Of a DNA stretch of 15,614 nt, positions 1-15,614 are shown piece after piece. The notes under the pieces were generated by a model, which saw nothing but the letters and a program-made list of their open reading frames with translations, was not told the origin of the DNA and ran no database searches. The position numbers and the translations under genes were made by a program. The number at the start of each line of letters is the position of its first letter. Position 1 is the stretch's first letter. The DNA is from a bacterium (GTDB lineage Bacteria; DRYD01; JALUEN01), in NCBI GenBank assembly GCA_027052755.1, contig JALUEN010000064.1:1-15614 (forward strand), written 5' to 3'.

Positions 1-63
1 ACCAGGTTCGTACCAGTTGACGTTATGTATCAGCAGGTCTTCATCTTCTTTGATCCTGAGTGA
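1..63 (+). CDS. rpoB: RNA polymerase β subunit, piece before the in-frame TGA (partial at 5' end)
   Basis: Frame 1 is open from the window edge to a TGA at 61-63 and encodes 20 residues ending in F-F-D-P-E. In Bacillus subtilis and E. coli β (recalled sequences), an F-F-x-x-(K/D) stretch directly precedes R-Y-D-L-x-x-V-G-R, which ends the N-terminal half before the fork domain. Here F-F-D-P-E is followed by TGA and then, in the same frame, Y-D-I-S-L-A-G-R-Y-K-L. These residues are therefore the end of the β N-terminal half, whose remaining several hundred residues (protrusion and lobe) lie upstream of the window. The stop may be a genuine end of a split β-N polypeptide or an artefact. The gene identity is secure from continuity with the next entry; the status of the stop is not. 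Confidence 0.85.
   Translation, partial: TRFVPVDVMYQQVFIFFDPE
61..63 (+). other. In-frame TGA replacing a conserved Arg codon in rpoB
   Basis: The codon series reads GAG-TGA-TAC-GAT-ATA, giving P-E-stop-Y-D-I-S. The position is Arg in the recalled E. coli and B. subtilis sequences (R-Y-D-L). One substitution from AGA or CGA gives TGA. The ten codons between the stop and the next usable start (TTG at 94) still encode conserved β sequence ending in G-R-Y-K. An anciently split gene would not be expected to keep these as coding. Candidate explanations are a base-call or assembly error, a recent nonsense change, re-initiation, or readthrough. Confidence 0.9.
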
Positions 64-80
64 TACGATATAAGCTTAGC

Positions 81-87
81 GGGAAGG
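81..87 (+). promoter_or_regulatory. Possible internal ribosome binding site before the rpoB continuation
   Basis: GGGAAGG lies 6 nt before TTG 94 and 9 nt before ATG 97. It could support re-initiation 18 nt downstream of the TGA at 61-63. The same bases encode the conserved G-R of the β motif, so the resemblance to a Shine-Dalgarno site may be accidental. It is weaker than the AGGAGG-type sites elsewhere in the window. Confidence 0.3.
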
Positions 88-93
88 TACAAG

Positions 94-3000
94 TTGATGA
101 AGGCTTTTGACAAGAAGGTGAAATGTCCTAAGTGTGGTTACGAGGAGTATCCTAGGAGATTGAAGTGTCCAAAGTGTGGGGCTTACTTTAAGTTTGACAC
201 TGTGCTTACACCAAATGATTTCATTGATGTGGTTAAATATCACATGGCGTTCTTAGAGGGATTTGGACAGGAGGATGACCTAGATCACCTCAGCAACCGA
301 AAGCTCAGACGTGTCGGTGAACAGCTCTACAACCAGTTCAAAGCTGGTATGATAAGGCTCTCTAGGGTAGTCAGGGAGAGGTTTATGATAGCTTTCGGTA
401 ATCAGGAGAGAGTATCTGATAAAGCATCAAAGCTCATAGATAAGTTTAACCGAATTCTAGCATCATGGGAGGAGCCAGACGAGGAGACTTTAAACGAGTT
501 AAACGATCACCTAAAGATCCTAGAGGATCTAATAGATTCATTGACCTCTCTAAGGGATAGCCTTACTAGACTAGCAAGGACTAAGGAGATAAAGAAGGCA
601 GCTAGTGAGCTGAAGAACGAGACAGCAAAGATCATTGATAAGGCTAAGAAACTCAGAGATGCTTTCAACGAGATGAAGAGTACTCTCAGCGCTGGTAAGA
701 AGGTAAAGGCTGATAAAGTTAAGTCGGTTAGAGAGCTAGTTCTGAACATAATGGATATGTTAATCTCCCTCAAGGGAGATATAGATCGCAATGCCACTAT
801 AGCAAGCGCTATAGAGATAAATATATCTGAGGTATTCACTAACAGACCTGTAGTTGGAGCTATAAAGCAGTTTTTCGCTCAGCAGAGTCAGTTGTCCCAA
901 TTCCTGGATCAAACTAACCCACTTGCTGAGCTCACCCACAAGAGGAGGATATCATCGTTAGGACCTGGAGGACTTCACAAGGAGAGAGCAGGTTACGAGG
1001 TCAGGGACGTGAAGTCAACCCATTACGGTAGGATATGTCCTATAGAAACGCCAGAGGGATCTAACATAGGTCTGATAACATCTCTAGCTATACTAGCTGA
1101 TAGCAACGACTTTGACTTCCTGGTAACACCTTATTACAAGGTTGAGAACGGTAAGGTGAACTTTGATAAGGTTGATTACCTTGACGCTGATGATGAGAGC
1201 AGGTACGTCATCGTTCCTGCTGATACCGAACTAGATGAGGAAGGTAGGATAAAGGACGAGTACGTAGTGGCAAGGAAAGGTGGAGAACTTCAGATAGTGA
1301 AGAGAGAAGAGGTTGACTACATAGATGTCTCACCTAGACAGATCTTCAGCTTGTCTGCCTCCCTTATCCCGTTTATTGAAAACGATGACGCTAACAGAGC
1401 TCTGATGGGAGCTAACATGCAGAGACAAGCTGTACCACTAGTTGAGACAGAGGCTCCGTTTATAATGACCGGTATGGAGAAGATAGCAGCTGAGAACAGT
1501 GGATATCTAGTGAAAGCTAGGAGAAGCGGATACGTCAAGTACGTTGACGCTAACAAGATAATCATAACTACTGATGATGGAGACGAGGATATCTACGAGC
1601 TGATAAAGTTCACCAAATCCAACGCTGCTACTACGATACACCAGGTACCGATAGTTGACCCAGGCCAGAGGGTAGAAGCAGGTCAGGCTATAGCTTCTGG
1701 GCCATCTATGAGCGGTGATACCTTAGCTCTGGGAAGAAACGTGTTGGTAGCTTTCTTGCCGTGGGAGGGCTATAATTTTGAGGATGCTGTGGTGATCAGC
1801 GAGGAGCTAGTGAGAGATAACGTATATGACTCCATACACATTGATGACTTTGAGTGTAAAGCGACGAAAACTAAGCTAGGTGATGAGGAGATAACCAGGG
1901 AGATACCTGGTGTTCCAGAGGAGGAGCTTAGACACTTAGATGAGAAGGGAATTGTACTGCCTGGTACCTGGGTAAAGCCTGGTAACATACTAGTTGGTAA
2001 GCTAACACCGGAGGGCGAGAGTGAACTATCACCAGAGGAGAAGCTTCTCAGGGCTATTTTTGGAGATCAGGCTAAGAAGGCTAAGGATACCTCCCTTAGG
2101 GTCCCGCCAGGTCTCAGGGGTAAAGTTATGGACGTTTACGAGATAGATCCATCATCTAGCGATCCTTTCTCTGAGGACAGCAACCTCCTCAAGATGGTAA
2201 TGGTTTACATAGCTCAGTACAGACACCTTCAGGTAGGAGACAAGATGGCGGGTAGACATGGTAACAAGGGTGTTATATCTGTCGTCGTACCTGTGGAGGA
2301 CATGCCGTTCCTAGCTGATGGTACACCGATACAGATGGTATTGAACCCACTAGGTGTTCCCTCTAGGATGAACGTTGGACAGATTATGGAGACTCACCTT
2401 GGGTTAGTGTGTAAACTATTGGGGATAAGGATGGAGGTACCATCCTTCTACAAGATGACACATGAGGAGATCAGGGAATGGATGAAGAAGGCGCTGGAGA
2501 AGGAGTTAATGGACCTGATGGGGGACAATAAGCGAGCCTACTCTTCTAAAGAGCTATTACTGTTGATGATGAGAAGGTCCGGATACACAATTGAGCACGT
2601 GTTAGATCTACTAGGATTTGATAGGGAGAAGCTGATGGAGAGGTTAACTCAAGCTGGCTACGATAGACCCGAGTTAGAGAAGTACACGGATGAGGGCTTG
2701 AAGAAGTTGATCGTCTTAGATGACCTAACTGAGGATGAGCACAAGAAAGCCATCAACAAGATAATAGACAATCTGTTAGATGGTAAGTTTATCTTATATG
2801 ATGGTAAGACCGGCCAGCCTTTTAAACAGCCTGTTATCGTAGGTTACATGTACATGATGAAGCTGATCCACCTGGCGGAGGATAAGATACACGCTAGGTC
2901 AACAGGACCCTACTCACTGGTAACGCAACAGCCCCTAGGTGGAAAGGCTCAATTTGGTGGTCAGAGGTTCGGAGAGATGGAGGTATGGGCCTTGGAGGCT

Positions 3001-3267
3001 TATGGAGCCTCATATGCTCTCCAGGAGATGCTGACGATAAAATCAGATGACATTACCGGAAGATATAAGGCCTATGAGGCTATCATCAAGGATGAAAATA
3101 TTAAGCTAGTAACTATCCCAGAGTCCTTCAAAGTGTTGATCAAGGAGCTTCAAGCTCTTGGCATGAACATAGAGATCATCACTAAGGACAACAAGAAGAT
3201 TATCCCCAAGGATTACGGTGCCTTTGAGCCAGAGGAGGAAAGCCTTATACCTACTTATAGAATTTAA
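94..3267 (+). CDS. rpoB: DNA-directed RNA polymerase subunit β, portion downstream of the TGA
   Basis: This encodes most of β, from the fork domain to the C-terminal clamp region of core RNA polymerase. Numbering from TTG 94: a zinc ribbon with C11, C14, C25 and C28; fork sequence with D-D-L-D-H-L at 61-66; a helical insertion at about 105-242; the rifampicin-pocket region at about 260-295 with Q-L-S-Q-F and T-H-K-R-R-I-S; E-T-P-E-G near 318-322; active-centre lysines K717 and K725 in G-D-K-M-A-G-R-H-G-N-K-G; a second insertion of about 95 residues coded near 2455-2780; then the conserved H-A-R-S-T-G-P-Y-S and G-G-Q-R-F-G-E-M-E-V-W blocks. The C-terminus is complete, ending at TAA, with 25 nt before rpoC. 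The start is only the first possible codon after the TGA, because β homology extends upstream in frame; ATG 97 is an alternative. Identity is certain. Whether this is a separate polypeptide is unknown. Confidence 0.97.
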   Translation: MMKAFDKKVKCPKCGYEEYPRRLKCPKCGAYFKFDTVLTPNDFIDVVKYHMAFLEGFGQEDDLDHLSNRKLRRVGEQLYNQFKAGMIRLSRVVRERFMIAFGNQERVSDKASKLIDKFNRILASWEEPDEETLNELNDHLKILEDLIDSLTSLRDSLTRLARTKEIKKAASELKNETAKIIDKAKKLRDAFNEMKSTLSAGKKVKADKVKSVRELVLNIMDMLISLKGDIDRNATIASAIEINISEVFTNRPVVGAIKQFFAQQSQLSQFLDQTNPLAELTHKRRISSLGPGGLHKERAGYEVRDVKSTHYGRICPIETPEGSNIGLITSLAILADSNDFDFLVTPYYKVENGKVNFDKVDYLDADDESRYVIVPADTELDEEGRIKDEYVVARKGGELQIVKREEVDYIDVSPRQIFSLSASLIPFIENDDANRALMGANMQRQAVPLVETEAPFIMTGMEKIAAENSGYLVKARRSGYVKYVDANKIIITTDDGDEDIYELIKFTKSNAATTIHQVPIVDPGQRVEAGQAIASGPSMSGDTLALGRNVLVAFLPWEGYNFEDAVVISEELVRDNVYDSIHIDDFECKATKTKLGDEEITREIPGVPEEELRHLDEKGIVLPGTWVKPGNILVGKLTPEGESELSPEEKLLRAIFGDQAKKAKDTSLRVPPGLRGKVMDVYEIDPSSSDPFSEDSNLLKMVMVYIAQYRHLQVGDKMAGRHGNKGVISVVVPVEDMPFLADGTPIQMVLNPLGVPSRMNVGQIMETHLGLVCKLLGIRMEVPSFYKMTHEEIREWMKKALEKELMDLMGDNKRAYSSKELLLLMMRRSGYTIEHVLDLLGFDREKLMERLTQAGYDRPELEKYTDEGLKKLIVLDDLTEDEHKKAINKIIDNLLDGKFILYDGKTGQPFKQPVIVGYMYMMKLIHLAEDKIHARSTGPYSLVTQQPLGGKAQFGGQRFGEMEVWALEAYGASYALQEMLTIKSDDITGRYKAYEAIIKDENIKLVTIPESFKVLIKELQALGMNIEIITKDNKKIIPKDYGAFEPEEESLIPTYRI

Positions 3268-3292: not shown

Positions 3293-6200
3293 ATGTCACT
3301 CACCTTGAATGATATAAGTGCCATAAAGATATCCCTAGCGTCCCCCGATATGATAAGGAGCTTGTCCTTCGGTGAGGTTAAGAAGCCAGAGACCGTTAAC
3401 TACAAGACGTTGAAGCCGGAAAGGGATGGTTTATTCTGTGAGAGGATCTTCGGGCCTATAAAGGATTATGAGTGTGCCTGTGGAAAATACAAGCGCTCGA
3501 AGTCCATATCTCTCTTAATGAGGACGAAACAGAAGGGCTTTAGATGTGAGAGATGTGGAGTGGAGATAACCAGGTCTAAGGTTAGGAGGGAGAGGTTAGG
3601 ACATATAGAACTAGCTGCCCCCGTAGTTCACGTTTGGTACTATAAGGGTAACCCTAGTATAATATCCTTATTCCTAAACTTACCTCAGAGCGATCTTGAG
3701 AAGGTTGTCTCTTTCCAATCCTGGATAGCTACCTCGGTAAATGAGTTCAACAGGGAGATATTACTCCAGCTATTAAAGGTGGTTTACCTCAATATTAGGG
3801 AGAACCTCAGGAAGAACTGGGAGTCTATAAAGTCTAATTTAGAAAACCTTCTAGAGGATATTGAGGAGCGTATAAAATCCTACAGTAAGTCCTCTAACGG
3901 AAAAGCTTATAAGTTCCTAGAAATAATGAGGGAGATAATCCTGAGGCTAGTTGGCAAGGATGGAAATGGATTAGTGGACTCTCTATTTGATGATATCGGT
4001 AGCAGTATTAGAAGCATAAAGGCTAGAGATATTGAGAACAGGTATAATGATTTCCACATAGATCTGGTTAACAGACTTAGGAGATTAGAGGCTAACATAC
4101 CATCTGATAGCACTTTGAAGTCAATATGGGAGAACTTTCACAGGATAGTTACTGAGACTATAAACCTGCTACTATCTATGGAGGGAACTGGTGTATCGCT
4201 TCAGAAGATAGATGAGGTTTACGTTTACTTCAGGGATCTCCTTAACTCACTAGCTTACAAGAAGGTCATAAGTGAATCTGATTACTCCCAGATGGAGAAG
4301 TTAGAAAAAGAGTACAGGGAGAAGTTGATCTCCTTGTCCCTCATACTAATGCTACCTGATTCTGAGATAAGGGAGATCTTTGGATATGAAGTAGGGGAGT
4401 ACTTGATAAACCTTAAGAGGGATATACCGCTGCTCATAGCTTTAAATAGGTTAGATTCCAGATCACTTAAAAACCTTTTGGATATCTTATTAAAGAGGGA
4501 GGATCTGGAGAGGGAGATATCTGAGCTTAAGGAGAAGCTATCAGACTTAGAGTCTAGTTTAGAAAACGCTAGCACGAACTCTGAAAAGGAGAAGCTTCTA
4601 GGAGAGATAGAGAAGGTCAGGGAGGAGCTCTCAGAAAAGTCAATAAGGTTTGAGAACTCCTGGTTTGATTTCAGGAACTTAGTAGAGAACTTGGTCTTCT
4701 CTGAAGGTAAAGGTGTGTTTAATCTATATAACTTAAGGGATTACTTAGGGATATTCTACGTGGATATCAATAACGAGGAGGAGTTTGAGGAGTATAAGAA
4801 GACCTTCGCTGAGAAACTAGCTAAGGAGTTGCTCACGTTAGCTACTATATCTAGTCAGGGCACAGCTTCCCCTTCAGGAAATAAGGTGATAAGGGAAGGG
4901 GCTCAGGAGATAGAGTTAGAGTCTCTTCCCACTGAGAAACCTAGGTCTAACTCCATAGATGAGAAGGTTCTGGAGAATTACCTAGTTAGCAGGTTCCTTG
5001 AGTTCTACAATAACTGGAACACTATTAGAGATACTATAAAAAACAAGCTCCTGAGAAAGTACTCAGCTACAATTGATAAGAGGCATCAGGAGTTCGCTAG
5101 AACTTACCTAGGGATGATAGAGAATCAGAAGATATCTATAACGGATAGGGACTATCGTGAGCTCAGTAAGATTTCCTATCTAGGTTTCGCTGAGAAGGTA
5201 GCTGTGATCCTGTATGATCTAGTTAGAAATAGGTTAAAGAGCCTAAGCGGAGTAGTAAAAGCCTTCCCACTGTTTGAGGATGCTGTATCTGAGCTGTTAG
5301 AAGATTTTGATTTCGTCGCTAGGTTAAGATATGCAGCTGATAAGGAGATGTCATCTAAAGCTTCTAAAGTTGCGGACTATTCTGAGGAGTCTCCGAAGGT
5401 AAGAGTTCTTAAGGAAGGCTATAAGAGGCTTCTGAGTTTCTCCAAGTTTGCTACTATCTCCACCTTCATGACAGGGGCGGGAGCAATTAGGATCTTACTC
5501 TCCAAGGTTGATGTTGATCAGATGTATGAGGAGCTTAGAAATAAAATAAACTATCTCCTAGAGTGGGAAGTAACTCAGAGGAGGCTCTTTAACAGGGATA
5601 TCATCTTAGGATTGCTCACTTACAAGTACTATGTTCAGAGGAGGAGGAAGTTAATAGATGAGCTGGATTCCAGTTTAAGGCCTCTCTCTGATAAAGTCTT
5701 AATGAACTACCTTGAGAGCTTAGAGAAACTGAACTTACATGATATAATAGCTAGATCACCTTGGACTTATCCGTGGGATATATCTGAGAACTACTCTGAG
5801 TTCAGAGACGCGGTAGAGGAGAAGGTAGAGGACCCAGAGCTTAGGCGAAAGGTAGTTAGATATATTAAGGAATTAGAGGATCTAGATAAGGAGTACTTAG
5901 ATCTGTTAGAGTCTTTTGAGAAATTGGGTGTCAAGGGATCGGTTATCCCCAATGATAAATATGAGCACTTATCAACGATAATCTATGATTTAACTCCTGA
6001 GTTCTCCTCACTGATGTTCCAGCTTTACCTAACATCCAACTCCTCTAAGCTGAAGCTGAAAAAGGAGATCCTCTCAAAGCTACCTCCTTTAGATGAGCTT
6101 AGGGATCTGATCTTGAAAATCGCTGTGATAACCAGGGGTACGCCTGCTAGGGTGAAGGAGCTGAAGAGGTTAATAGATGAGTACTTCAAGGCTAAGGATG

Positions 6201-9200
6201 AGGATAAGGATCTAGCTAGGGATAAGTTACGAGCCCACATGATATCAATGAAGCTTGATTCCTACCCAGAGCTTGAGGATGAGTTCCTCAACACTGAGTA
6301 CCCACTTATGTTAGCCTTCTCTGATGGTAAGGTGGAGTGGACAGATGATGAGCTAAAGCACCTGAGAGAACTGATAGATGACTTAGCTAACAATGATGAA
6401 CTTTATTGGGCGGATCTCTACGTTAAGCTTATAGAGAAGCTCTGGGAGTACGCTAGCAAGTTTATAGTTTACGAGGATGGCACTAAGAGAGACACCTTAA
6501 AAGAAGAGCTTGTCTCTGCCTGGGAGAAGCTCTTAGAGGTCGTTCCCGGAGTACTTGATCCAATCCCTGCTGAGTTCCAGATAGCTAAGACCCATAACAT
6601 AACGGCAAGAAATAAGCTGATAAAGAGACTAGAGGTTGTCTGGTCATTTAAGTTCTCAGGCGTTAAGCCCTCCTGGATGGTCCTAGAGGTTGTACCTGTA
6701 TTACCTCCTGACCTAAGACCTATAGTGCCACTTGAGGGTGGGAAGTTCGCTTCTTCTGACCTCAACGATCTTTACAGGAGGATCATCAACAGAAACCTGA
6801 GGCTCAAGAGGCTCTACGAGTTGGATGCTCCGAAGATGATTATAAACAACGAGAAGAGGATGCTCCAGGAAAGCGTGGATGCCCTCATAGATAACAGTAA
6901 GAAGGCTAAGCCTGTAGTCAGTCAGGGAAGCACTAAGCGACTCCTCAAGTCCCTCTCAGATAACCTGAGAGGAAAGCAGGGTAGGTTCAGACATAACCTG
7001 TTAGGAAAACGTGTTGACTACTCTGGTAGAGCTGTTATCGTGGTTAACCCGAAACTGAAGATGCATCAATGTGGTGTACCTAAGGAGATGGCATTAGAGC
7101 TCTTCAAGCCTTTCCTGATAAGGAAGCTTCAGGAACGAATGAGCGATATGACCATAAAACGCGCTAAGAGGATGATTGAGCAGGGAAGACCTGAGGTATG
7201 GGACCTCTTAGAGGAGGTTATCAAGAACCACCCAGTTCTACTCAACAGAGCACCTACGCTTCACAGGTTAAGTATCCAAGCGTTTGAGCCTGTTCTAGTG
7301 GATGGAAAGGCTATCCAGATACATCCTCTGGTTTGTACACCTTATAACGCTGACTTTGACGGTGATCAGATGGCTATACACGTTCCGCTAACCCCTGAAG
7401 CTCAAACTGAGAGCAGGGTGCTTATGTTATCCATACACAATATGCTTATCCCAGCTAATGGTCAACCAGCTAACTCTCCTACCCAGGATATGGTAATAGG
7501 AGCCTACTACCTCACAATAGAACTGGAACCCTTCTCAAAGGAGAAGGTGAGGAAAGCTTTCTACAGCTTTGATGAGGCTATAAGAGCCTTTGAGGAAGGT
7601 GTTGTAGACGTTCACGATTGGGTAGCGGTATCAGTTCCTAGCAGCCTTCTCGTGAGGGAGAGCATTAAGGATGAACCTAAGAAGCTTAGGACAGGAATAC
7701 TTTACACAACTATAGGTAGGATAATCTTTAACGAGGCTATAAGGAAGTACGTTGTTAAATACGATCCAAAGGTGGAGTACTTTAACTTTGAGTTTGATAA
7801 GAAGGCTCTGAAGTGGCTAGTGGCTACCCTTATATACAGGTATGGCATGGTTAAAACTGCTCCGGTACTTGATGAACTGAAGGAGTTAGGCTTCTACTGG
7901 GCTACAAAGCAGGGATTAACCATGAGTATAGCTGACCTAGTGGTACCTGAGGAGAAAGCTCAGATACTTAAGGAAGCTGAGGAAAAAATTAACGAGTATG
8001 AGAAGTACTACAAGATAGGATTGCTCTCTAGGGAGAAGCTGGATGAGCTCAAGATAGAGATCTGGCAGGAGACAACTGATAGGGTAGTGGAGGCGCTCAA
8101 GAGGTACTTCATCCAGAAAGCTAAGCTCAACCCGGTCTGGATGATGGCGAACTCAGGAGCTCGTGGTAGCATGAGCCAGGTTAAACAGCTATCCGGTATG
8201 AGGGGACTGATGGTGGATCCAACTGGTAGGATCATTCCCACACCAGTTAAGGCTTCTTTCAAGGAAGGTCTAAGCGTGATAGAGTACTTCATATCTACTC
8301 ACGGTGCTAGGAAAGGATTAGTGGACACTGCTCTGAGAACCGCTGACTCAGGTTACCTCACTAGGAGAATGGTTGACGTGCTTCAGGATATCTACGTTAA
8401 GGAGGAGGACTGTGGTACTACTGAGGGTATCGTGGTCCGTGCTCTGAAGGAGATTAATTGGGATCCAGAGGAGGCTCAGAAGATTAAGGTATCTGAGGCT
8501 CTTGGCAGGACCTTAGCAGAGGATATCACTAAGGGCAAGAAAGTTCTGGCTAAGGCTAACACCTTAGTTGACTGGAACACGAGGAAACAGCTAGAGGAGG
8601 CTGGAGTTAAGGAGGTTAGGGTTTACTCTGAAAACGAGATAATACCGTTCAGCCAGAGGATAAGGGGAAGAGTATCACTTCAGGACTTCGTTAACCCAGA
8701 AACCGGTGAGGTTATCGTTAAATCAGGTGAGCTTATAACTGTAGATAAAGCTGAGAAGATCGCTAAGTACTACGTTGAGGGTAAAGTTAGGAGTGTCCTG
8801 AAGTGTAAGTCCTTCAAGGGAGTATGTAGGAAGTGTTACGGTGAGGATCTAGCGAGAGGTAATGCTCTCATTGATCTAGGAGAAGCAGTAGGTATAATCG
8901 CAGCTCAGAGTATTGGAGAGCCTGGTACTCAGCTAACGCTACGTACCTTCCACACAGGTGGAGTAGCTATGGAGGACATCATTCAGGGTCTCCCCAAGGT
9001 TGAGTACCTATTTGAGGTTAGGAGACCGAAAACCGTAGCCCCATTCCTGCCAGAGGAATCAGTCCTCAAAGAGGTTGAGACAACAGATAAGGGTTATAAG
9101 CTGAAGTTCAAAGGTGAGATCTTCGGTGAGGATTACGAGATACTAATTCCGTTCAACCAGAAGCTTAACTTCAGGATATCAACCATAACTAGAGGTGCTA

Positions 9201-9940
9201 AGTTCAAAGAGAAGAAGATACCTGCCTGGATACCGCTTACAAGGGGGTTACTCCCGCTTAGGGAGGTAATGGAGAAGGGTATCTCCTTCCTGTGGGACAA
9301 GCTGATAACGAACGTGATTAAGGATGGTAAAGGCAAGGTTATCAGGGATCTCTTAGCTTCCACTGAGATTCCAGTTGATATATACGTCAGAAAGGTCAAG
9401 GAGCTCTGGGAGAAGTATAGATCTGAGGACAAGGTTATAAAGAAGGCTCAGGAGGAGCTGAGGAAACTGATTGAGGATTACGTGATAGAGATCGTTCAGA
9501 AATACATCGTTGATGAGATCCAGAAGGTATATGTGGGTCAGGGAGTATCTATACATGACAAACACATTGAGCTGATCGTCAGGCAGATGAGCAGGTTCGC
9601 TAGAATTATAGATCCAGGTGATACAGAGCTACACCCTAACAAGCTAATTGACTACATCGCTTTAGAGCGCTTGAACGAGATGCTGGAGAAAGAGGGTAAG
9701 AGGAAAGTTATTGCTCAGAGGGTCTTGTTAGGTATAACTAAAGCAGCGCTAAACACTGAGTCGTTCCTCTCCGCAGCATCATTCCAGGAGACCACAAAGG
9801 TCCTAACCTACGCTGCGATAGAGGGACAAGTTGATCCATTGAACGGGCTGAAGGAGAACGTGATCATCGGTAAACTGATACCAACGGGTACCGGATTCTG
9901 GAAGTACAGAGACCTGAAGATCAAAGTGAGATCTAAGTGA
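3293..9940 (+). CDS. rpoC: DNA-directed RNA polymerase subunit β', giant form of 2215 residues
   Basis: Catalytic subunit of RNA polymerase, complete from N-terminal clamp to C-terminus. Features in order: zinc site 1 (C61, C63, C85, C88, with a loop about 9 residues longer than in E. coli); clamp up to about 147; insertion 1 at about 150-715, helical with a coiled coil near 403-465 and a Ser/Thr/Pro-rich linker near 518-558; a conserved G-A-G-A-I and Q-R-R segment at 728-764; insertion 2 at about 770-1100; lid, rudder and K-R-V-D-Y-S-G-R at 1239-1246; the Mg-binding N-A-D-F-D-G-D with D1354, D1356 and D1358; bridge helix near R1624; trigger loop near 1671-1720; zinc site 2 (C1707, C1838, C1845, C1848) enclosing an apparently duplicated unit; a helical addition at about 1982-2075; and a normal C-terminus. 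From memory, β' is 1199 residues in B. subtilis, 1407 in E. coli, 1524 in Thermus and about 1690 in Thermotoga. No catalytic residue is missing. The gene ends at TGA. Confidence 0.98.
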
Positions 9941-9985: not shown

Positions 9986-10450
9986 ATGAGGTTAAGAGTT
10001 GCTGGGCTAATTAGGTATAGGGACAAGCTCCTATTAGTTAACCACGTGAAGGGGTATAGGAGCTACTGGCTCCTTCCTGGCGGTGGAGTAAGGGAAGGGG
10101 AGAGCATTGATAGAGCATTAGCTAGGGAGCTCTTTGAGGAGCTTGGGCTGGATGAGCTTCACTTCTCTATAAGAGATGTAGTTCTGATAGTGGAGAGCAT
10201 TGGCCCTTCTCGGCACGTGGTTAACCTAATTATGGAGGTTCACCTACCAGAGGATCTCTTCGCTAGGAACCTAGATGGAGATCGCTGGAGGTGGAAGTCA
10301 GAGGATCCCAGGGTGGTTGGCGCTAGGTTGTTTTCCAGATCAGAGCTGGAAAGTCTAGAGATACATCCACCTATAAACGAGGAGCTTAGGGCTTACCTCT
10401 CTGGAAAACCCTTTAAGAGGATCTACATAGGGGCAAGGTGGCGACCTTAG
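9986..10450 (+). CDS. NUDIX hydrolase
   Basis: A 154-residue member of the NUDIX family, which hydrolyses nucleoside diphosphates linked to another moiety in a metal-dependent reaction. The NUDIX box is complete: G33, five residues, E39, seven residues, then R47-E48-L49-F50-E51-E52-L53-G54-L55. E51 and E52 belong to the metal-binding helix. L-P-G-G-G at 30-34 leads into the box. No signal peptide is visible, so it is cytosolic. The substrate (for example oxidised nucleotides, ADP-ribose or a dinucleotide) cannot be read from the sequence. ATG 9986 is the only reasonable start, yet it follows the terminator tail with no adjacent Shine-Dalgarno site. The gene is in the same frame as rpoC, with no stop between the rpoC TGA and this ATG. 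Its TAG directly abuts the next ATG. Confidence 0.93.
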   Translation: MRLRVAGLIRYRDKLLLVNHVKGYRSYWLLPGGGVREGESIDRALARELFEELGLDELHFSIRDVVLIVESIGPSRHVVNLIMEVHLPEDLFARNLDGDRWRWKSEDPRVVGARLFSRSELESLEIHPPINEELRAYLSGKPFKRIYIGARWRP

Positions 10451-11728
10451 ATGATACCTCTTCTAGCTATCTCTATCCTGCTGATATTACTCCTCTTCAT
10501 CGCCTTACCTTTTATAATAGGAGCTTATCTTCAATCTAAACGAGGTTCTAAGCTGGAGCTGAATCAGACTCCTTGGTTTAAAAGTGGCGCTTGCAGGTTA
10601 ATCAAGATATTGACTTTAAAGAATAAAGGGAACTTCCACGCTTTAATTTTAGAGGGATACGTTAGGAGTAAGTTCATGGAGTCTTATCCGTTCCTGATTA
10701 GGCTCCTTAGGCCTGATCAACCATCACCTTACCCCTATTTTAAAACAGCTCTGATTAAACCAGAGAATTCTAAAAAAGATCCCAAAGAGCTTAAGATTAT
10801 CTTAGAGCTTCTCTTAGATAGGAGTACTTCTAGTGAAGTTTTCTCGGCACCGGATCTGGAGCTAGTCTTAACCTTTTATGATAACAAACCAATCAGGACG
10901 GTAACGTTTCCCATAGCTACTGAGGTATCTGGGGAGGGGCCTTCGGATCTTGACCTGTCCTCTAAATCTGGAAATCACTCAAAAGAGGATGATTTAACCT
11001 CTGAGGTATCCCTTCTCAATATATTTACTGATTACGGTAGTATCAGCTGTCTGAGAACACCGATTATTGAGAGAGAATCTCAGCTAGTTGAGTATCTACT
11101 TGAGGGACTTAGGAGATTTCGCGATGTTTACAATGAACAGCCGGAGTTGGTAGCTATATCTGAGAGCGTCGTAGCTATAGCTCAGGGAAGAGCTTTTAAG
11201 GTCTATGAGGTGAAAACTACAGCTATATCTGAGACCTTAACTGGTTTCTTTCACGAGGATTCCAGTATGTCTAGCCCGTATGCTTTTCAGGTAGTACTTA
11301 GAGAGGTTGGCTTTCTCAGGATCCTCTTAGGGATATGGGGAGGAATGTTAGGGAAGCTATTTAGACAAAGGGGTTGGTTTTACGTTTTAGCTGGCAGGCA
11401 GGCTGCTTCAGTAGATGACTGTGGTGGTACTACTCCACCATTTGATAAGAGTGTGGTCCTATCTCCTAGGGATCCTAGCTTTTTTGCGAAAAGACTTAAG
11501 GAGAAGCTGATTGAAAGGGATAAAGAATTGTCCTCAATACACCTAGCGGTTGTTGACGTCAATGACCTGGGAGCCGTAGATCTCTTAGGAACTTCTGATA
11601 TCTCCAATTGGAAACTTCATGAGGTTGCCCTTAAGAAACTTCTCAGAAAAAATCCTCAGGGTAATGAGGATGAGAGAAGACCTATCGTCCTAATCCCTAA
11701 GGCTACTTTAGAGAAGGCTTCCTCTTAA
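10451..11728 (+). CDS. Membrane-anchored protein with a domain like coenzyme F420-0:L-glutamate ligase
   Basis: A 425-residue protein. Residues 3-26 form one strongly hydrophobic N-terminal helix followed by S-K-R, a likely membrane anchor. Residues 40-160 are unrecognised, with predicted β content, and are followed by an acidic, Ser-rich linker at 160-185. Residues 202-415 resemble the CofE/FbiB-type domain: A-I-S-E-S-V-V-A-I-A-Q-G-R-A near 235-248, L-R-E-V-G at 283-287, a G-K-L-F and G-W-F-Y-V-L-A-G-R block at 301-316, V-V-D-V-N-D-L-G at 367-374, and N-P-Q-G-N near 401-405 followed by P-I-V-L-I. These match my recollection of bacterial homologues annotated as F420-0:L-glutamate ligase. The true ligase adds glutamate to F420-0 using GTP. 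Activity here is uncertain, because nothing else in the window relates to F420. The start directly follows the previous TAG, with AAGGTGG about 9 nt upstream, suggesting coupled translation. Confidence 0.75.
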   Translation: MIPLLAISILLILLLFIALPFIIGAYLQSKRGSKLELNQTPWFKSGACRLIKILTLKNKGNFHALILEGYVRSKFMESYPFLIRLLRPDQPSPYPYFKTALIKPENSKKDPKELKIILELLLDRSTSSEVFSAPDLELVLTFYDNKPIRTVTFPIATEVSGEGPSDLDLSSKSGNHSKEDDLTSEVSLLNIFTDYGSISCLRTPIIERESQLVEYLLEGLRRFRDVYNEQPELVAISESVVAIAQGRAFKVYEVKTTAISETLTGFFHEDSSMSSPYAFQVVLREVGFLRILLGIWGGMLGKLFRQRGWFYVLAGRQAASVDDCGGTTPPFDKSVVLSPRDPSFFAKRLKEKLIERDKELSSIHLAVVDVNDLGAVDLLGTSDISNWKLHEVALKKLLRKNPQGNEDERRPIVLIPKATLEKASS

Positions 11729-11764
11729 ACAGCTTTTCCTTGTAGATCTATCAAGGGAAGAGGA
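11720..11764 (+). promoter_or_regulatory. Intergenic stem that could mask the namZ ribosome binding site
   Basis: TCCTCTT at 11720-11726, which overlaps the end and stop of the preceding gene, is complementary to AAGAGGA at 11758-11764. The latter overlaps the AGGAGG site (11761-11766) of the next gene. An inner CCTTG/CAAGG pair at 11738-11742 and 11752-11756 can stack inside. A ribosome finishing the upstream gene would open the outer stem, a layout compatible with translational coupling. This is inference from complementarity only. The 46-nt gap shows no T-run terminator and no clear promoter. Confidence 0.4.
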
Positions 11765-11774
11765 GGTAGGGTAG

Positions 11775-13001
11775 ATGGTATTCAAGTTCGGTGCTGAGGT
11801 CCTCCTTGAGGAGAACTTAGAGGAGTTAAGAGGAAAGAGGGTAGGGCTTTTAACTAACTGGTCAGCGTACCTTAACTGGAGTGGGAAGATAGTTCCGACC
11901 TTTCAGGCTCTCCTTGAGGCTAGCAGGGAGTATGGTTTTCAACTAGTGAGGATCTTCTCTCCTCAGCATGGCTTGTGGATGTTAAGGCAGGCGAACATGT
12001 TAGAGTGGGATGGTGGAGAGGAGTTATCCCTTAAGGTCTTCAGCCTCTATGGGAAGTACAGGAAACCACCTCTAGAGACTTTGGAAGATCTAGATATTAT
12101 GCTCGTTGACCTCCAGGATGTGGGTGCTAGATACTATACCTACGTGTGGACCTTGAAGTTGACTATGGAGGCTTGCGATGAGCTGGGACTCCCTCTCTGG
12201 GTTTTGGATAGGCCTAACCCGATAGGTCGCGGAGTTGAAGGTCCTATCTTAAGACGGGAGTTCTTCTCCTTTGTTGGGATGGAGGAGATACCGGTAAGGC
12301 ATGGGATGACCATAGGAGAGCTAGCCCTACTGATAAGGACATCAAATGAGCTTAAACTACCCCTTAGGGTTATTAAGATGTCTAACTGGGATCCTAGGGG
12401 GTGGCCTGAGGATAGGCCATGGATCTTACCGTCTCCTAACATGCCCACCTTGGATACGGCTTTAGTGTATCCTGGAGGATGCTTGTTTGAGGCAACTAAC
12501 GTTAGCGAGGGAAGGGGAACTACTAGGCCCTTTGAGATCGTGGGAGCGCCTGAGGTGGATCCATTTAAGTTAAGGGATCTCTTGACTAGCTGGAGCGAGA
12601 AGTTGGGGTTAGCAGGTTTTCAGCTGTATCCAGTGAGGTTCGTACCGACCTTTGATAAGGGTAGGGGGCAGGAACTGGGTGGAGTTATGGTGATAGTTAC
12701 GGATAAATCCTCATTTCAGCCGGTGAGACTTTATTCCCTGATGATGAGGGGGTTTAAGCTTATTTGGAAGGACTTCAGGTGGCTTATGCCACCTTATGAG
12801 TACGAGTACTCTAAGATGCCTATAGATATCCTGTGGGGAAGTCCTCAGCTCAGGGAGTTAATTGACAAGAACGCTAGGTTGGAGAGCTGGAGGGAACTCT
12901 TCCTTAAGTTATCTGAGGAGGAGAGAGGCTTTCTAAACCTGAGGAAGAATTTCTTACTATACTCTGAGGCTCTTGAAAAGGAGGGAGCGTCATGCGTTTG
13001 A
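11775..13001 (+). CDS. namZ: DUF1343 protein, exo-β-N-acetylmuramidase NamZ family
   Basis: A 408-residue full-length member of the family founded by B. subtilis NamZ, which removes MurNAc from the non-reducing end of peptidoglycan fragments. Family blocks are clear: K-R-V-G-L-L-T-N at 21-28, F-S-P-Q-H-G at 61-66, D-L-Q-D-V-G-A-R-Y-Y-T-Y at 112-123, D-R-P-N-P at 145-149, V-R-H-G-M-T at 174-179, P-S-P-N-M near 220, and a V-S-E-G-R-G-T-T-R-P-F block near 245. Residue 64 is Gln where better-known members have Glu (S-P-E-H-G), a residue I recall being proposed as catalytic. From memory other DUF1343 proteins also carry P-Q-H-G, so this may mark a subfamily. No signal peptide is visible, so a cytosolic cell-wall recycling role is more likely than export. 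The start has AGGAGG 8 nt upstream. The TGA overlaps the next gene by 10 nt and is followed two codons later by an in-frame TAG. Confidence 0.92.
   Translation: MVFKFGAEVLLEENLEELRGKRVGLLTNWSAYLNWSGKIVPTFQALLEASREYGFQLVRIFSPQHGLWMLRQANMLEWDGGEELSLKVFSLYGKYRKPPLETLEDLDIMLVDLQDVGARYYTYVWTLKLTMEACDELGLPLWVLDRPNPIGRGVEGPILRREFFSFVGMEEIPVRHGMTIGELALLIRTSNELKLPLRVIKMSNWDPRGWPEDRPWILPSPNMPTLDTALVYPGGCLFEATNVSEGRGTTRPFEIVGAPEVDPFKLRDLLTSWSEKLGLAGFQLYPVRFVPTFDKGRGQELGGVMVIVTDKSSFQPVRLYSLMMRGFKLIWKDFRWLMPPYEYEYSKMPIDILWGSPQLRELIDKNARLESWRELFLKLSEEERGFLNLRKNFLLYSEALEKEGASCV
12978..12986 (+). promoter_or_regulatory. Ribosome binding site of the S55 peptidase gene, inside the namZ coding end
   Basis: AAGGAGGGA ends 5 nt before ATG 12992. 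It lies within the last codons of the namZ-like gene. Together with the 10-nt overlap it fixes the downstream start and suggests translational coupling. Confidence 0.75.
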
Positions 13002-15614
13002 GGATAGGGATAATAATAGCTTTCCTGCTGTCCTTATCGTTCTTGCTTACCTCTTATGCTTCATCTGCTCTATCACCTAACCGAGGCTCATCTATAGGGG
13101 TATATAAGCCTCCTATAGACAAGTCGCTTCTAACCGATAACCTACTCCTAGACTACTCTGCTTTAAAACCCGGAGAGAGGTGTGAGGTAGTTACCGTAAT
13201 AAAAGGTGTTTCAACTGATAGGATACCTTGTCATGTGTTAGGAGTGATAAAGAGCGGTGGATGGCTTCCTAGGAAGATAGTTATAAAGTTTGACATAAAG
13301 GATATCCCTGTAGCGGCGGGAATGAGCGGATCTCCGGTAATTGTAAGAGGTAAGATTGTTGGAGCTCTATCAGCTGGTCCTCTTTTCCCTAAGGAGCCAG
13401 TTGCTTACGTTACACCAATAGCTGATATGTTAACGATGAAGGCTAGGGGAAGCTCTGGAAATGAGGAGTACGCTCTGCTTAGCTTGTATGCTAACCTGAA
13501 TCTGAGTCCATCTGCTAAGAGAGTAATGGGGATCATAATCTCCCATGAGCTGGGGATCACTCCTCAAGAGCTTAGCTCTATAGATCTCAACAAGTACAAG
13601 AATTCGCTTTTGTGGAGCTTGAACACTACAGCGGAACCTTCACTTTCCTTTGGAGATAAGAAAGTAGTTAACTATCCAGAGATACTATCAAAGAAGACCT
13701 TTAAACCAGGTGATGCTGTATCCGTTATGATAACTAGGGGAGATGTAAAGTTATTTGCTACGGGAACTGTAACTCACGTTAAGGGAAATCAGTTCTTAGC
13801 GTTCGGGCACCCATTCTTCTGGATCGGAGACGTGAAGCTTCCGGTATATACGGCGGAGATCCTTCACGTTCACGATAACTACTTTAACAGTTATAAATTA
13901 CCTAACGCTGTGAATGAAGTTGGTGCTCTAGACTTTGACGGCAACTTCGCTATAAGGGGAACTATAGGCGAGAAGGTAGAGATGATGCCTGTTCACGTTA
14001 AGATCTCAAGACCTAACGGGCAAACTGCTGAGTATCGCTTTGAGGTAGCCAGGCACAGGAAGCTTACTCCTTTCTTCACTGCGATAGGGATTTTATCCCT
14101 ACTTGATAACTTAGATACCTATCAGCAGGAGGCTGCGGTTAAGGGAACTTTATCTATTGGTTTCTCTAACGGGAAGGTTATAAAATACTCCTCACTGATG
14201 GCTAATCAGAAGGTCAACCCTGCTCTAGCTCTTGTGATCAGGACTTACATCTGGCTGAGGTTTTTCCTCAATACCCCTTATGCGGAGCTAAAACCTGAGT
14301 ACGTTGACCTCTCCGTGAAGATACTGCCTAACGATAGCGCTAGTTTACCGATAGCTTTTATCAAGGACTTGAAGTACTACTCCATTGACCCATTAACTTA
14401 CAGGGTTGTAGCTACTTTAAAGACTAGGACGGGAAGGGAGTTCACAGAGGAGTTCACCGTTAGGTATCCTATTAAGCAGAAGGTCTATAGGTTAGCGGTT
14501 TGTGGAGGGCCTTACACGTTACTTGCTAGGAAGTACATAAAAACCTTACCTTATGCATCTAGGGATGTTGACAGGTTCTTTGAGATCTTGAATAGTTTAG
14601 AGCCTGAGTCTGGGCTTTACCTCCTCACATCTTACAAAGCGAAAACCTACTCAATACATCCATTTAAGAGCTTTCTCCTACCTGCTAGCTTACTTCAGAA
14701 CCTCTCTGTTTTCTCCAAGGATCTCTACAGCTTCTCTCACGTTGAGATCAAGCAGGTTAGGAAGATCCCTTATGTGGTAAGGGGAGCGAAGGGTATAGCT
14801 ATTAAACCTCAAAAGGGAGGTTACACGGTTTCCGATGAGAGGAGAGAGGGGAATGCCTCTGTGTATGAGGACCAGTTTGAGAGGATAGCTTTCTCAGGAT
14901 TAGATGGGGAGCTCTTTAAGGCTTACTTAGATACCTTTAAGGAGATGTTGAGCTCTCATGAGGATACCCTGAGTAGTGAGGAGGTAGAGCTGAGGGAGAA
15001 GTTAGGTAAATTGAAGCGCACTAGCTCAAAGAAATCAGCTAAAGCTTCCAAGGAGAGAAAACCTCAGACCTCCTCTCCTACTAACGCACCTAAAGTCAGG
15101 AGCATCTCATTAACTGATATATCTGATCTACTTGAGGGACAGTCTCAGAACGTCCTATTGACCGTTGACGGTAAGATATACCCGATGCGATCTCTTAAGA
15201 AGAAGAGGTTGGAGAGCATCCTATATGCTAAGAGGTTGGGTGATATTCTCTTCATGGTATCACCGAATAACTTATACCTATACAACACCTCCACTGGAAG
15301 GTTATCTTCTTACAGCCTGAGGATAGCCCTATTAGGGGACGAGGCCATAACCTCTATTCAGCCTATTAGCGAGGAGAAGCTCTTAGTTGGAACCTTGAGG
15401 GGTAACCTCTACTTACTAAAGGTTTTACCGGGAGTTCACAGGGTAAAGGTATTAGCGAAAGCTGATCTAAAGGCACCTATTACCTCAGTTGGATTCAGCG
15501 GTCAGAGGGTTTTCATTGGTCTAGCGAATGGAAAAATTCTCGTCTCTAATCCTACCTTAAAGGGCTTGAGAGACTTCTTGAGGATGAGGGACTTAAAGCC
15601 TTCTCAAATCTTAG
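12992..15614 (+). CDS. Exported SpoIVB-type (S55) serine peptidase with C-terminal β-propeller, partial at 3' end
   Basis: The frame is open from ATG 12992 to the window edge (874 codons). Residues 1-27 form a signal peptide: basic M-R-L-R, a long hydrophobic stretch, then S-Y-A-S-S-A, so the product is exported or lipid-anchored outside the membrane. The S55 region contains L-K-P-G-E-R near 58-63, then a G-V-A-type lead into A-G-M-S-G-S-P-V at 109-116. By analogy with G-D-S-G-G-P of chymotrypsin-fold proteases, the nucleophile is S112. A second block near 260-340 contains A-F-G-H-P-F with H273. After a region of unclear fold (about 340-660) comes a Lys/Ser/Pro-rich linker coded near 15000-15110. 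Then repeated β-strand units (L-Y-L-Y-N-T-S-T-G, L-L-V-G-T-L-R-G-N-L-Y, V-F-I-G-L-A-N-G-K-I) look like WD40 or PQQ-type propeller blades. It is much longer than sporulation SpoIVB and unlikely to be a sporulation protein; its substrate is unknown. Confidence 0.88.
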   Translation, partial: MRLRIGIIIAFLLSLSFLLTSYASSALSPNRGSSIGVYKPPIDKSLLTDNLLLDYSALKPGERCEVVTVIKGVSTDRIPCHVLGVIKSGGWLPRKIVIKFDIKDIPVAAGMSGSPVIVRGKIVGALSAGPLFPKEPVAYVTPIADMLTMKARGSSGNEEYALLSLYANLNLSPSAKRVMGIIISHELGITPQELSSIDLNKYKNSLLWSLNTTAEPSLSFGDKKVVNYPEILSKKTFKPGDAVSVMITRGDVKLFATGTVTHVKGNQFLAFGHPFFWIGDVKLPVYTAEILHVHDNYFNSYKLPNAVNEVGALDFDGNFAIRGTIGEKVEMMPVHVKISRPNGQTAEYRFEVARHRKLTPFFTAIGILSLLDNLDTYQQEAAVKGTLSIGFSNGKVIKYSSLMANQKVNPALALVIRTYIWLRFFLNTPYAELKPEYVDLSVKILPNDSASLPIAFIKDLKYYSIDPLTYRVVATLKTRTGREFTEEFTVRYPIKQKVYRLAVCGGPYTLLARKYIKTLPYASRDVDRFFEILNSLEPESGLYLLTSYKAKTYSIHPFKSFLLPASLLQNLSVFSKDLYSFSHVEIKQVRKIPYVVRGAKGIAIKPQKGGYTVSDERREGNASVYEDQFERIAFSGLDGELFKAYLDTFKEMLSSHEDTLSSEEVELREKLGKLKRTSSKKSAKASKERKPQTSSPTNAPKVRSISLTDISDLLEGQSQNVLLTVDGKIYPMRSLKKKRLESILYAKRLGDILFMVSPNNLYLYNTSTGRLSSYSLRIALLGDEAITSIQPISEEKLLVGTLRGNLYLLKVLPGVHRVKVLAKADLKAPITSVGFSGQRVFIGLANGKILVSNPTLKGLRDFLRMRDLKPSQIL

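Follow-up and report, generated by a model that had tools for sequence, protein, structure and literature searches.

The rpoB gene, which encodes the β subunit of RNA polymerase, is essential in bacteria. Second-largest RNA polymerase subunits made as separate chains are known from some archaea, namely B' and B'', and from splits in plastids. UGA is likewise known as a sense codon in bacteria, having been reassigned to tryptophan in the Mycoplasmatales/Entomoplasmatales and some insect symbionts and to glycine in the Gracilibacteria and Absconditabacteria (PMC8629427). Literature searches of partial coverage returned no report of an rpoB gene combining an in-frame stop codon with readthrough, and none on assembly errors at the contig ends of metagenome-assembled genomes of low coverage.

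Here we describe an in-frame TGA in rpoB at the edge of a contig from a draft bacterial genome of 1,408,649 bases in 281 contigs, estimated to be 73.8% complete. The window, that is, the whole stretch of 15,614 nucleotides analyzed, comprises positions 1-15614 of contig C64 (16,941 bases) and begins at the physical start of that contig (Table 1). The locus resembles the archaeal and plastid splits in that β here would be two chains, and it resembles the bacterial reassignments (PMC8629427) in that a UGA lies inside a conserved frame in a draft where release factor 2 (RF2) was not found. Finally, the stop stands alone in an essential single-copy gene, next to a contig break and with homology undecayed on both sides, features that it shares with base or assembly errors and with the mixing of strains in the consensus of draft metagenome-assembled genomes.

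Table 1. Coordinates of features at the rpoB locus within the window.
Feature	Position	Strand	Remark
Physical start of contig C64 (assembly break)	1..1	.	
rpoB (β), 3' part	1..3267	+	5' part (343 residues) closes contig C211 of this draft
In-frame TGA	61..63	+	site is Lys within the order and mostly Arg in bacteria beyond it
Residues YDISLAGRYKL, from the stop to the ATG at 97	64..96	+	conserved, identical to P0003
Shine-Dalgarno-like GGGAAGG	81..87	+	nine bases ahead of the ATG at 97, inside conserved Gly-Arg codons
ATG, first candidate restart past the stop	97..99	+	TTG at 94 just ahead
rpoC (β')	3293..9940	+	2215 aa, ends in TGA

An rpoB gene cut by the assembly

Across the TGA the β frame reads TRFVPVDVMYQQVFIFFDPE-stop-YDISLAGRYKL and then stays open to the end of the gene, giving 1057 residues when counted from the TTG at 94; an NCBIfam match identifies the part after the stop as rpoB. 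The nearest full-length β among the best 120 of at least 7,995 matches, P0003, is 78% identical over 815 residues and consists of one chain of 1292 residues with lysine at the site of the stop, FFDPEKYDISLAGRYKL. Upstream of the stop, 17 of 20 residues are those of P0003 (85%). Downstream, 78 of 118 positions are identical directly after the stop and 639 of 815 farther along; the first 11 residues past the stop all agree with P0003, as do 14 of the first 15. Reading frame, NCBIfam match and P0003 alignment together confirm what an earlier note, made from the sequence alone, had claimed, namely that this TGA lies inside rpoB with β homology on either side.

Only 60 bases separate the assembly break from the stop, which is the 21st codon of C64. 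The missing N-terminal part of β was sought with a query of 333 residues, translated from the first 1000 bases of a same-order locus (L003). Two sites in the draft matched, one at C211:7819-8553 and the other at the start of C64. Contig C211 (8,635 bases) stops in the middle of β; its frame runs for 343 residues from an ATG preceded by a GGAGG-type sequence and is open through the last base of the contig. When the two pieces were searched separately against P0003, the C211 piece ended at residue 335 and the C64 piece started at residue 337. C211 ends with one leftover base, so that two bases are missing, assuming no indel, and no exact overlap joins it to C64. Since their ends lie one residue apart on P0003, rpoB is a single gene cut by the assembly into C211 and C64, 60 bases ahead of the stop, and its N-terminal part continues in frame from the end of C211 to the stop in C64. 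The start of the gene at the window's edge is thus an assembly break. Searches of the draft returned a single rpoB match, with no second copy, and no contig overlapping the start of C64.

The site of the stop in relatives, and UGA elsewhere in the draft

In all six same-order genomes β is encoded in one open frame, of 1359-1411 residues, and lysine occupies the site of the stop in each (codon AAA five times, AAG once). Among homologues P0003-P0121, taken from the best of at least 7,995 matches, the motif was found in 116 of 119, with arginine in 111, lysine in 4 and leucine in 1; it was also recovered from 71 of 80 named loci, with arginine in 60, lysine in 8 and histidine in 3. Almost every sequence thus has a basic residue at this site, and in the window's own lineage it is lysine. 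The ‘conserved Arg’ of the earlier note consequently stands for bacteria at large (111 of 116) and fails for the organism's own order, in which the six genomes and P0003 carry lysine. In the comparison with close relatives that it proposed, the gene is intact in the six genomes and in P0003, as would be expected under an assembly or consensus error. A full-length β from the same species elsewhere was not seen among the best 120 matches listed, in which the only 100% match is the window's own (P0002) and the next is 78% identical. An N-terminal β of the species, truncated in a different assembly, was likewise sought; the 11 fragments obtained are at most 44% identical, and none fitted.

The use of UGA elsewhere in the genome was sampled in 62 stretches of the draft, the window included. 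Of these, 24 were N throughout and were set aside, and the 38 left held 278,132 letters, about one-fifth of the draft; gaps of 10 N also occur in a number of its contigs. Comparison was made with 762 ORFs, rpoB not being among them, from 60 stretches (923,026 bases) of the same-order genome G003, itself taken in part. The 103 non-overlapping matches comprise 28,793 aligned residues without one in-frame TGA, a count that bears on a change of code, site-specific readthrough lying outside its reach. Five in-frame stops were found. Three are TAA codons just past a 10-N gap in one contig; the remaining two are a TAG in a 30%-identical alignment and a TAA where an alignment of 33% identity ends. Gene ends were counted as anchored where no more than 15 residues of the relative lay beyond the homology, and the 57 such ends comprise 29 TAA, 19 TAG and 9 TGA. 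Long ORF ends counted without homology anchoring (n = 86) comprise 41 TAA, 23 TAG and 22 TGA. Since TGA closes anchored genes, UGA is, by the evidence of gene ends, an ordinary terminator in this draft genome.

A tRNA able to read UGA, for which the earlier note had suggested looking, did not turn up: none of the 21 tRNAs found in the incomplete draft has a UCA anticodon, and no tRNA-Sec exceeded the cut-off there, all 7 sub-threshold matches coinciding with other detected tRNAs. As for release factor 2, which the note had also raised, RF1 (prfA) is the sole release factor found in the incomplete draft, and RF2 (prfB) was not found in it. prfB exceeds the cut-off in five of six same-order genomes; the genome in which it does not is 71% complete, against 73.8% for this draft.

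Readings of the stop codon

We judge, with a probability of roughly 85%, that the TGA reflects a local error in consensus or assembly, or else a stray, non-representative strain variant, and is not part of a working rpoB. The draft consensus would have taken up the error or stray variant within the first 63 bases of C64, the assembly having broken the gene a short way 5' of it, and the cell would carry one uninterrupted β gene read by the standard bacterial code. Several observations argue for this. The stop lies at base 61 from the start of a contig in a fragmented and incomplete draft, and the N-terminal 343 residues end C211 in frame and meet C64 on P0003. The draft yields one match to a gene that is essential, that gene is one open frame in every same-order genome, and homology does not decay directly past the stop. 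UGA, moreover, ends other genes of the draft and is absent from the frames aligned. Among the options that the earlier note had raised (error, recent mutation and readthrough), an error or a recent or stray variant remains the likeliest.

Other results count against this reading. The lysine codons of the order are two or three base changes from TGA, and in this respect the locus differs from a simple error of a draft metagenome; a single miscall suffices only if the species had another residue at the site. The 60 bases nearer the edge of C64 look sound, as their agreement with P0003 indicates, and the failure to find RF2 in the draft points in the same direction. Nor do the other contig edges support a common occurrence of edge errors. 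Of the 73 real edges in the 38 unmasked stretches, one is the window's own and 27 show no frame of 150 codons. The other 45 carry such a frame, which runs open at 35 of them and ends within 100 bases at 10; among random internal cuts, serving as the control, 126 of 991 show an end this close (22% vs 13%, p = 0.07). The excess is slight and not significant, and no stop occurs in any of the 13 homology matches (382 residues) that extend to an edge.

A real nonsense mutation, recent and fixed in the strain, with rpoB damaged or rescued in some way, would likewise leave no decay past the stop, as is observed. We nevertheless regard it as very unlikely: with one rpoB match in the draft and an essential gene, such a mutation is implausible without rescue, and at least two substitutions would be needed from the order's lysine codons.

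Alternatively, the N-terminal chain might end at the TGA and translation restart at the ATG at 97 (or the TTG at 94), with both chains assembling into the polymerase. The GGGAAGG ahead of this ATG would suit such a restart. A match as strong precedes 2 of 148 other internal ATG, GTG and TTG codons of rpoB and rpoC, and the distance from stop to restart is about 30 bases. However, this stretch was sought post hoc, and it coincides with codons for Gly-Arg in the conserved AGRYK motif. A chain started there would also be without YDISLAGRYKL, which looks to be still under constraint, being identical in P0003; the earlier note's argument that conserved codons past the stop speak against an ancient split therefore holds. 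In contrast to the archaeal B'/B'' and plastid splits, six same-order relatives and P0003 are unsplit, and the restart here would drop conserved residues. The two-piece bacterial β that the note had envisaged accordingly has one Shine-Dalgarno-like stretch in its favor and no split relative, and it seems highly improbable.

Decoding of UGA as a sense codon, whether under a changed code or by readthrough at the rpoB site alone, appears extremely unlikely. The β frame is open and conserved on both sides of the TGA, and the failure to find RF2 in the draft would fit. Against this stand the TGA-closed genes, the lack of any in-frame TGA in the aligned residues, the tRNA complement found, and the presence of RF2 in most same-order genomes. 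The locus differs from the reassignments given in PMC8629427: UGA here terminates other genes, the frames compared contain no further UGA, a tRNA with a UCA anticodon was not found in the draft, and the site is basic, neither tryptophan nor glycine. The recoded polymerase gene suggested earlier thus finds no echo in the compared part of the draft, and genome-wide reassignment is rejected on the counts of aligned residues and gene ends. Selenocysteine is considered unlikely in turn, with no tRNA-Sec above the cut-off in this incomplete draft and a basic site in relatives.

Taken together, the checks made lend no support to a novel code or to a polymerase in two pieces. There is only a slight chance that the TGA is both real and fixed, in which case this uncultured bacterium would produce β as two chains through reinitiation at the ATG at 97, or UGA would be read through at this one basic residue while serving as a normal stop elsewhere. 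Were the stop upheld by reads, the locus would offer an internal stop in an essential bacterial gene, on which reinitiation or readthrough in β could be tested directly. As it stands the TGA matters little, and it is a warning that one stop close to the edge of a contig is poor ground for inferring recoding or a split gene.

Insertions in β and β' and neighboring genes

Shortly past the stop, positions 124-177 encode a zinc-ribbon-like CPKC...CPKC in β; its four cysteines recur in P0003, and a similar pair is present in the β of same-order genomes. Farther along, at 418-813, lies a coiled-coil-looking insertion of 132 residues that is absent from P0003, between flanks that are 66-78% identical. 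rpoC follows downstream of rpoB. Judged from alignment, β' carries a very large lineage-specific insertion: about 913 residues (~3872-6610) lie between two stretches alignable with same-order relatives, and the same interval spans about 404 residues in the β' of G003, whose frame is 1648 aa. The downstream region, 9986-15613, encodes a NUDIX protein, an F420-ligase-domain protein and a NamZ-like exo-muramidase, and a long protein without a Pfam match is still open at the window's end.
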